This document shows, piece by piece, positions 22,101-27,649 of a stretch of 64,000 nt of DNA. Under the pieces are notes generated by a model. It did not search any database, was not told where the DNA came from, and worked only from the letters and a program-made list of their open reading frames with translations. Numbering within the stretch: position 1 is the first letter of the stretch; each line of letters begins with the position of its first letter. The position numbers and the translations under genes are program-made. The stretch spans positions 15,393,660-15,457,659 of the forward strand of contig NC_133235.1 in assembly GCF_040436345.1 (NCBI RefSeq). The letters run 5' to 3'. The stretch comes from Pagrus major. Lineage: Eukaryota > Chordata > Actinopteri > Spariformes > Sparidae.

Positions 22101-25100
22101 ATGTAAGAAGAGGTCTTACCGATGGCTGGGTCCATCCAGTGCCCTGTCCTTCAGAAAGCTGATGGTGGGTTTTTTGGAGATGGATACTCCAGCGTCTGCT
22201 TCCTCTCCCTCGTCGCAGCTGTCGACAGACTTGAAAGATGTCTGGCCCCATCGTCGACGTCCTGACCTCACTCCAGTTGCGTTGTTCTCTGCTCCTGTGG
22301 GAGCTGCTCTTGGAGGCTTAAAATGAACATATTAGAAAAATATTATTAGACAAATTAGAAAAAAAAGTTCTGTAAGGCCAAAGAAGGTCCGAATCTGACA
22401 TTTATGAACTGTACCTGAGTGACACCTACAGCCTGCCAGTTCGTTGGCTGCCTGCTTTTCACCAGGCTGAGAGGTTCCTGCTGCCCCTCTGTCAGCGTGG
22501 TGAAACTCATTGTTTTTTTTGTGCTGTGTTCCATGTTGTCCTGAGGTAGGGAGATCTGATGAAGGGGCCGGTGGAGAGACTCGCTAGACTCTAGTTCCGT
22601 CTTACAGAGGGACAGAGGTTTTGTCTCTGCAGCTGCCTGGGACATCTTTGCCTGAGCCATGAGAGGGGCACCGAGCGCCTGGCCGACATGGAAGTATGTA
22701 TACCGTAGAGCCTGGAAAAATATCTTCAGTTACATCTTTTTTAGTTCATGTCCAAGCTTAGTCAGATTTTCCATGAATGAGAATGTTAAAGCATGAAGAG
22801 GACAAATATAAAGAAAATTGTTAGATAAAAAAGTAAAATTAGCTGTATCAAAATAAAAATCGCAGACATGGGAATACATGTAAAGGACTAATCACACAAA
22901 CCACCACCGCACATTTCCTACAGATCTAGAGGCTGATATTTAAAATAGATTCATAAATATATGAAAACAGCATGCAGCATTCTATCTTTTGTATTTTTAA
23001 GCTTCAGCAGAAGTTAAAAGGTCAGGTCATAATAATGTGGGTCTGTCTCACACTTTGATTGAAGTCAGTGGAACTGCGTTGCCTCAGTATGTCCAGATGT
23101 CAAGTTTGGTGTCACAGCAACTGCCAAGGTGAGATGACTGATTCCCACTTGTTGCTAAAAAAAGCTGCACTCTGATAAAGTTGCTCTGGATAAAATCATT
23201 CACTGATGTGAACACTGTCACCTCAACATCAGTCTGTCGTCTCGACTCTAAGCGTTGTATGTTTTGTATGTGAAAACCTCATGGTTTTTCAATGTACCTG
23301 AGCAGCACTCGGTCTTTTCTCAGGGTCCCACTGCAGCATGTCTTTCATCAGCGTGATCGCCTCGTTGCTGGCGTTGGGGATCAGTGATCTGAGGCTGGTG
23401 GGAACACACTTTGGGAAGCGGAAGTTCATCGAGGTGGCCAGGTTGTAGCCCTCAGGCCAATCCGACTGAGGAAGCAGAACCAACGTTAGTCATCTGTGAG
23501 TTTGTGTGCAGCCTTATGTGTGCCTGCATGCATTCACGAAGGTATAAAATACAAATCACAAATATTTTCTTTATACTTTTGAATTGGTAAAGAAATCAAG
23601 TTTGTCACAAAACAGCAACTTTTGCTTCTGGTGTCTTATAAAAGGTGAAACATGTGAATTTTAATGGCAGTGGTCCAAACAGAGAGGGCGTCAGCATAAT
23701 TGATGACACCTGTTGTGATGGTTCACCTTTTTCAGCGTTCCCAGCACCTGACAGATCTTGAAGATTTCATCCACCTCACTGTTGCCAGGGAACAGGGGTC
23801 TGAGTGTGTAGAGCTCGGCCATGATGCATCCCACAGCCCAGATGTCGATGGGTGAGCTGTAGGAGTTCGACTTTAGTAGAACCTCTGGAGCTCGGTACCT
23901 GTCATAACAGCACGGGAGGATATTTATTGAACACTTAGTGACCTGTATTCCATGCTGTATTCTATTACTATTGTTGATCAATTGACAAAATTTGCAAACA
24001 GTCCTCATTTATTTCATCTGATCTTACTTATAATAAATGCTTTTGTCTCCTAGTACAGGAATTGCACTTTGCCCTGATATGATGTTGTAAATAACTGAGT
24101 CTCACCATCTTGTGGACACATATTCAGTGTAAGGTGGCTGCGAGCGGATCTCTCTGGCTTGTCCAAAATCAGCGATCTTAACCAGCTCTGGGCCCATGCA
24201 GAGCAAGTTCTCTGGTTTCATATCACGATGGAAATACCCTGAAAAACATGAGACAGTCAAATAAACCTGTGCTGATGCTGAGATTGGTCTAGATTTGCAT
24301 TATATTTTAGTTTCTACTACTATTACAACCACCACCACTTGACATGACTCTAATGATGCATATCACTATTTGATGTTTTGACTGATATGCAAACAGGAAC
24401 AGAGTTCAAACATCTCTGAGATGAAAAAGATGTTTTAACCTGACAAAACACAGTCAAGCCAAGCCTTTGAAGGGTAAGTTCACCCAAAGATAAAAACAAT
24501 TCAGTAATTATTTAGTTTTTGTAGTCCACAAAACATTTCTGGAGCTTCTCAGCAAGACAGCGCTGCGGCATTCTCCTAAACAACTACGAGTAAGCAAGTA
24601 CACATGGTAGAGCTCGTGTACCCACTTCAGATGGGGTGCGTTAACATCTTTTCAAATCAAACTGGGATCTTGAGGCTTCTGGAGACTTGGATTATGTAGG
24701 ACAAGCTGTATGAAGTCATGTACTTTCTAGTAGTTATTTAAAAACATTTTAAAAGTCCCCATCTTCTTCAGTTGTTTAGAGAATGCTGCAACACTGTTTT
24801 GCTGTGAAGCTCCAGAAATGATTTGTGGACTACGAAACTCACCTGGCTTTTCATCAGCATGATTGTAAGTAGATAATGACTGATTTTTTATGTTTGGGTG
24901 AGCCTATCCTTTAAGGAAACATAAAGGAAAAGAGAAAGACAGGAGGAGACTCTTACCGTGCTTATGCACAAATGCTAAGCCAGACAATACTTGGAACAGA
25001 ATGTTCCTTATCTCATTTTCAGAAAACATCTTATCTTCCCTGGCAGCGGCAAAGAGGTAAAAGACAAAAGATAAAAAAGAAAGAAAGAGGGGATAAAGAA

Positions 25101-27649: not shown

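Follow-up and report, generated by a model that had tools for sequence, protein, structure and literature searches.

The mak gene in the window, the stretch of 64,000 nucleotides analysed here (C21:15393660-15457659), carries two neighbouring versions of one kinase-domain exon, 5a and 5b, which we read with good confidence as an old tandem exon duplication whose copies are used as alternatives. As judged from genomic sequence, the two form a selectively kept pair that is probably mutually exclusive at the RNA level. In each mak pre-mRNA, exon 4 would be joined to one of the two, 5a or 5b, and the chosen exon to exon 6, and inclusion of both or of neither would shift the frame and presumably expose the transcript to nonsense-mediated decay. 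The two Mak kinases produced in this way would differ in the alphaD-alphaE loop, which is one residue longer in version b, and in helix alphaE.

Results

Two versions of a kinase-domain exon in mak

The phases of the mak gene model (Table 1) agree throughout, giving a single open frame of 656 amino acids with exon 5a and 657 with exon 5b. The predicted protein has a kinase domain with the activation segment of the MAK/CILK1 family as well as C-terminal motifs, in part shared with two relatives on contigs C19 and C15; such motifs mark this family. On re-checking, the coordinates of both exons, their lengths of 80 and 83 nt, their GT-AG sites and their phases (enter 2, leave 1) agreed exactly with the original prediction. 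The absence of in-frame stops from either exon was likewise confirmed, as was the claim that using both would break the frame, which in the window model then meets a stop at codon 130. Omission of both leads to a stop at codon 98, and the frame stays open with 5a alone or with 5b alone. The acceptor and donor scores of exon 5b fall within the range of the other mak exons, on an approximate scoring matrix, and the Pfam Pkinase profile (PF00069) fits the two versions equally, with 252.3 bits for a and 251.7 bits for b.

Table 1. Features of the mak locus around the alternative exons; positions are those of the window.
Feature	Position	Strand	Remarks
mak coding region	19195..27649	(-)	15 coding exons plus alternative exon 5b; E13 included
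Exon 4, common, upstream	25668..25789	(-)	peptide ends ...YQLMND; donor CAG/gtaaga
Exon 5a, 80 nt	25428..25507	(-)	split Arg codon in, split Gly codon out; homologues in C19 and C15
AG-free tract, 85 nt, 81% pyrimidine, 5' of exon 5b	25040..25124	(-)	C19 counterpart 87 nt, 86%
Intron separating exons 5a and 5b, 388 nt	25040..25427	(-)	C19 counterpart 446 nt
Exon 5b, 83 nt	24957..25039	(-)	split Arg codon in, split Gly codon out; homologue in C19
Intron 3' of exon 5b, 718 nt	24239..24956	(-)	contains dispersed foldback repeat, ~24467-24914
Exon 6, common, downstream, with catalytic loop	24106..24238	(-)	gene model

The same exon pair in a second mak gene

With the kinase domain of version b as query, 133 matches were found in the genome (786 Mb in 25 contigs) at E up to 0.001. 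The close ones, with most exons 70-97% identical, belong to the window gene and to two further genes, on C19 and C15. The C19 gene contains an exon a of 80 nt (L009 6155-6076) and an exon b of 83 nt (L009 5629-5547), with the order, phases and GT-AG sites seen in the window mak. The frame logic is repeated as well: either exon alone leaves the frame open, and both or neither break it. The second exon, which the original prediction had suggested seeking at other mak loci, is thus present at one such locus, within the same genome. In the C15 gene there is just one exon of the pair, of the a type (L010 4353-4274), and its flanking introns of 84 and 85 nt leave no room for an exon b; tblastn with the b peptide across this locus (L010) found the a-type exon alone above chance. 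A whole-genome search for the b peptide, in which 8 candidates were scored at E up to 1, yielded six matches. Those at E<0.001 are the b exons of C21 and C19 and the a exons of C15, C19 and C21, and the sixth is weak (E 0.07). Comparison of the E7 peptides of the three genes with collections of viral contigs and of genome contigs confirmed no relative in other species.

Two further features of the window gene were recorded. Within exon 6 (24106-24238, (-)), its activation segment departs from that of its relatives, reading DFGQARE and TEY where the C19 and C15 genes have DFGLARE and TDY. Its 72-nt exon 13 (20617-20688, (-)) is in frame, is preceded by a long pyrimidine tract and is likely a cassette exon; tblastn around the C19 and C15 genes revealed no clear counterpart.

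Purifying selection on both exons

Exons 5a and 5b were said to share 14 of 27 aligned residues, a count that holds if the split Arg is included and one extra residue is allowed in b; without the split Arg, 13 of 26 residues are identical. The two agree at 14/26 first, 23/26 second and 6/26 third codon positions, so that third positions are at chance level and second positions nearly fixed, and 10 of the 13 identical residues come from different codons. The likeness of a and b exceeds chance. A symmetric codon model of a versus b gave an omega of ~0.05-0.1, with an omega of 1 worse by 11 log units.

Taken alone, the a-b comparison leaves some room for exon b as a decaying duplicate or a pseudo-exon without function, a reading that we nevertheless regard as very improbable. 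If both branches are given equal time, neutrality of b costs 6.1 log units, but if they are very unequal, a b exon that evolved neutrally for a short while lies only 1.3 units below the best symmetric fit. The same reading could appeal to the zebrafish mak cDNA study, which reports two isoforms, with and without exon 14 (PMC11273301); exon b is thus unreported from zebrafish. It is the comparison of C21 with C19 that speaks most strongly against decay. Across these two genes exon b retains 26 of 28 residues although 17 codons differ synonymously and no more than 11 of 28 third positions match. Its omega is ~0.01 (support 0.003-0.05), well within the range below 1 that the original prediction had named as the sign of purifying selection, and neutrality (omega 1) is rejected with a 2dlnL of 52.8 (46.9-59.1 across kappa 1 to 6). 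For exon a, 20 of 26 residues are kept, with an omega of 0.15 (0.05-0.3) and a 2dlnL against omega 1 of 11.8; over the 26 columns that the two exons share, b is unchanged at 24 residues, against 20 for a. The constitutive neighbours retain 37/40 (E4), 39/43 (E6) and 52/57 (E7) residues. We also simulated neutral copies of b matched for third-position divergence, along one lineage with equal substitution rates: none of the 45,490 replicas retained as many as 26 of the 28 residues. The best replica retained 15, and 12,483 replicas contained no stop.

Thus, for this one gene pair in one genome, both versions are under purifying selection, and exon b is about as constrained as the neighbouring constitutive exons and more so than a; it is not a spare copy. 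Its splice sites are intact in both genes. After the C19 comparison, decay is unlikely except in the event of a very recent loss of function in both genes, and exon b is most likely a working part rather than a relic, because it is nearly unchanged in a second mak gene on another chromosome.

Two other accounts of this conservation were weighed. A recent copy or gene conversion, instead of long selection, might explain why b is closer than a in protein between the two genes, but a recent copy would also match at third positions, where the two b exons have largely diverged; we give this account hardly any credence. Exon b could alternatively be a poison-exon switch, whose double inclusion or skipping yields a decaying mRNA and turns Mak down without producing a second protein. 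The early stops that follow from both or neither exon, in both genes, suit this idea. However, a poison exon needs no conserved protein, and few residue changes beside many synonymous ones show selection at the protein level; moreover, b alone restores the frame. A pure switch of this kind therefore seems improbable to us, if a little less so than decay, and we retain the reading of 5a and 5b as alternative coding exons.

Intron flanks and choice of exon 5b

The AG-free stretch of exon 5b (85 nt) is the longest among the 15 mak acceptors, followed by that of exon 13 (56 nt, 82% pyrimidine). In C19, the corresponding stretch of exon b (87 nt, 86% pyrimidine) is again the longest, among five acceptors examined, with 83 nt and 67% for exon 4. 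We compared ten 120-nt flanks between C21 and C19 against shuffled sequences. The observed score was reached by 5 of 500 shuffles upstream of 5b and by 39 of 500 downstream, and by 150-481 of 500 for the other eight flanks, these counts being per flank and uncorrected for ten tests. Ranked by raw score, the downstream flank of 5a (15.5) stands slightly above that of 5b (14.5). Just the flanks of 5b look conserved among the ten, as expected for a regulated exon. Counts of splicing-factor motifs were uninformative.

With its long conserved pyrimidine tract, exon 5b would likely be the member of the pair whose choice is regulated, possibly by control of the PTB, TIA or PUF60 type. At 388 nt, the intervening intron is long enough that its length does not impose mutual exclusion. 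Steric exclusion was considered as a mechanism and is unlikely, given AG-free zones of 85 and 87 nt within introns of 388 and 446 nt; these dimensions would favour a regulated choice, combined with decay of misjoined transcripts, over a steric block.

The intron that follows exon 5b harbours, at 24467-24914 (-), a foldback element with long inverted arms. At least 123 matching pieces of it occur across the genome (40 of 4,579 candidates were scored), which identifies it as a dispersed, MITE-like repeat.

Position of the swapped segment in the kinase

As placed by sequence alignment, the swapped segment begins with the loop that follows alphaD, takes in alphaE and ends just short of the catalytic HRD. 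A single-sequence model of version b was discarded (mean pLDDT 38). Among the best 60 of 458 matches of solved structures to the b kinase domain, there was no MAK or CILK1; these 60 are CDKs or named CDK-like proteins, one of them (3niz) being titled otherwise. Eight positions separate all three a-type exons from both b-type exons, in addition to the one extra residue of b in the loop. The most drastic changes in b, namely the extra residue, P to S, S to N and V/A to E, lie in the loop and the first turn of alphaE. The last of these positions is V/A in a and E in b, and it aligns with a His in an ERK5-like kinase of this genome; this His is presumably the equivalent of ERK2 His-123. The docking site of ERK2 takes in loop 8 (Gln-117 to Ser-120) together with the first part of alphaE (Asn-121 to Phe-127), and the docking motif is contacted by His-123 and Tyr-126 (PMC3073974); related data are given in PMC6863825.

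The swapped segment thus matches the docking-groove side of MAP kinases, which favours a docking switch. By analogy with that position, the switch would most likely act on the partners or substrates bound by Mak, and changed docking appears more likely than changed catalysis. Mak is not known to use a docking groove of the MAP kinase type, and in a docking effect as such we place slightly less than even confidence. Alternatively, exon b may be functional but act on catalysis, on activation by CCRK/CDK20 or on stability. Within the C-lobe, helix alphaE is packed next to the catalytic loop, and the b-specific changes include two conservative I to V replacements, possibly at core positions, which would suit such a role. 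The clustering of the most drastic changes in the loop and first alphaE turn argues against it. We consider this alternative a serious minority possibility; it shares the exon-pair reading with the docking switch, and the probabilities of the two overlap.

Relationship of the three genes and age of the pair

Known neighbours of vertebrate MAK are tmem14c and pak1ip1. Next to the C19 mak gene lies a TMEM14 gene that converges with it, just as in the window, where the TMEM14 match lies at 17475-17603. Genome-wide there are four TMEM14 matches: in the window, beside the C19 mak, and two near the C15 gene. WD40-like frames, seen as open frames only, occur at 11-14 kb of the window. The C15 gene is probably cilk1, an identification that we base on the neighbours of the human gene and on tail motifs. 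A statement in the zebrafish mak paper counts against it, namely that a search of the zebrafish database identified no homologue of CILK1 (PMC11273301).

Some further observations concern the surroundings of these genes. The two TMEM14 matches near the cilk1-like gene, at C15:8826573 and C15:8836623, score equally and lie ~10 kb apart; the stretch at C15:8836623 contains a repeat at four places, two of whose three spacings are ~4.2 kb, which points to local duplication. A long GC-rich frame with a glycine run at 31191-32036 (+) of the window looks like the first exon of gnal. Zebrafish mak is reported to lie near gcm2, with gnal also listed nearby (PMC11273301). When GCM genes were sought as a synteny mark, one was found in the genome, at C19:30.07 Mb, near neither mak gene and outside the window.

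Kinase identities, out of 276 residues, are 237 for C21-C19, 227 for C21-C15 and 244 for C19-C15, and do not group C19 with C21. Third-position agreement, summed over E4, exon a, E6 and E7, amounts to 93, 80 and 83 of 166 sites for the same three pairs and would slightly favour C21 with C19. A gene tree with two distant kinases as outgroups gave no resolved grouping. We read C21 and C19 as a pair from the teleost genome duplication, an event of roughly 300 million years ago, because they share exon b and a neighbouring TMEM14 gene and agree best at third positions; the kinase identities, the tree and the position of the GCM gene weigh against this. In any case, the exon duplication predates the split of the C19 and C21 genes.

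An older origin may be considered. Exons a and b are identical at 13/26 and 16/26 residues within the mak genes, versus 19/26 and 21/26 between the mak a exons and the a exon of C15. As a and b thus differ more than do the a exons of mak and the C15 gene, the pair may possibly have arisen before the MAK/CILK1 split and been lost in cilk1; fast early change of b could also account for the large distance.

Discussion

We tentatively extend these results to a broader picture, which we think possible rather than probable. The exon pair would be a docking switch that already existed when the two mak genes split, and perhaps even before MAK and CILK1 separated, cilk1 having then lost it. Each mak gene would then supply two cilium kinases with different partners, serving different ciliated cells. 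Since a and b differ more than the a exons of mak and of the cilk1-like gene do, the b type might even be an ancestral vertebrate flavour that mammals would since have lost.

Alternative exon pairs in kinase domains are already known, from JNK1 and FYN, and the mak pair would be a new case of tandem-duplicated-exon splicing. The JNK1 pair concerns a part of the C-lobe other than the alphaD-alphaE segment. Exons 6a and 6b of JNK1 (MAPK8) are likewise alternatives within the kinase C-lobe and have been termed mutually exclusive (PMC8586503), and a choice between exons 7 and 8 is reported for both zebrafish jnk1 genes, jnk1a and jnk1b (PMC7259801); JNK1, however, is a MAP kinase and not a member of the MAK/CILK1 group. 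In FYN, as in mak, tandem duplicated exons with mutually exclusive splicing alter a kinase (FynB/FynT), but this is a tyrosine kinase, and the exchange affects the SH2-kinase linker and the start of the kinase domain (PMC9741552). A likeness in intron layout is found in OGDH, whose exons 4a and 4b are ancient, exclusive duplicates; the choice between them relies on the intron that separates them and on a long pyrimidine tract free of AG (PMC7969005). The OGDH system differs in its branch points, which lie near the 5' splice site and distant from the acceptor, and in an AG-free zone of ~280 nt in a fish minigene; its intron, longer than 500 nt in early chordates, has shortened to 118-131 nt in birds and mammals (PMC7969005), compared with 388 nt in mak. 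Within mak itself, the C-terminal cassette exon (zebrafish exon 14) is included or skipped and does not exchange part of the kinase domain (PMC11273301).

Among the literature matches listed, in the text available for them, we found no description of alternative kinase-domain exons in mak, and a text search of the literature with the exon peptide gave no match. The word MAK is absent from the main text of two surveys of human duplicated exons. Mammalian MAK has a retina-specific exon.

Mak is a kinase that controls cilium length. If the second kinase version is conserved, fish studies based on one cDNA would have covered part of the output of mak. Zebrafish and mouse mak mutants are reported to have opposite axoneme phenotypes (PMC11273301), and isoform content may be one candidate reason for this difference. 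Exon b would further offer, for a CMGC kinase, a variant of the docking side that occurs in nature and has been tested by selection.
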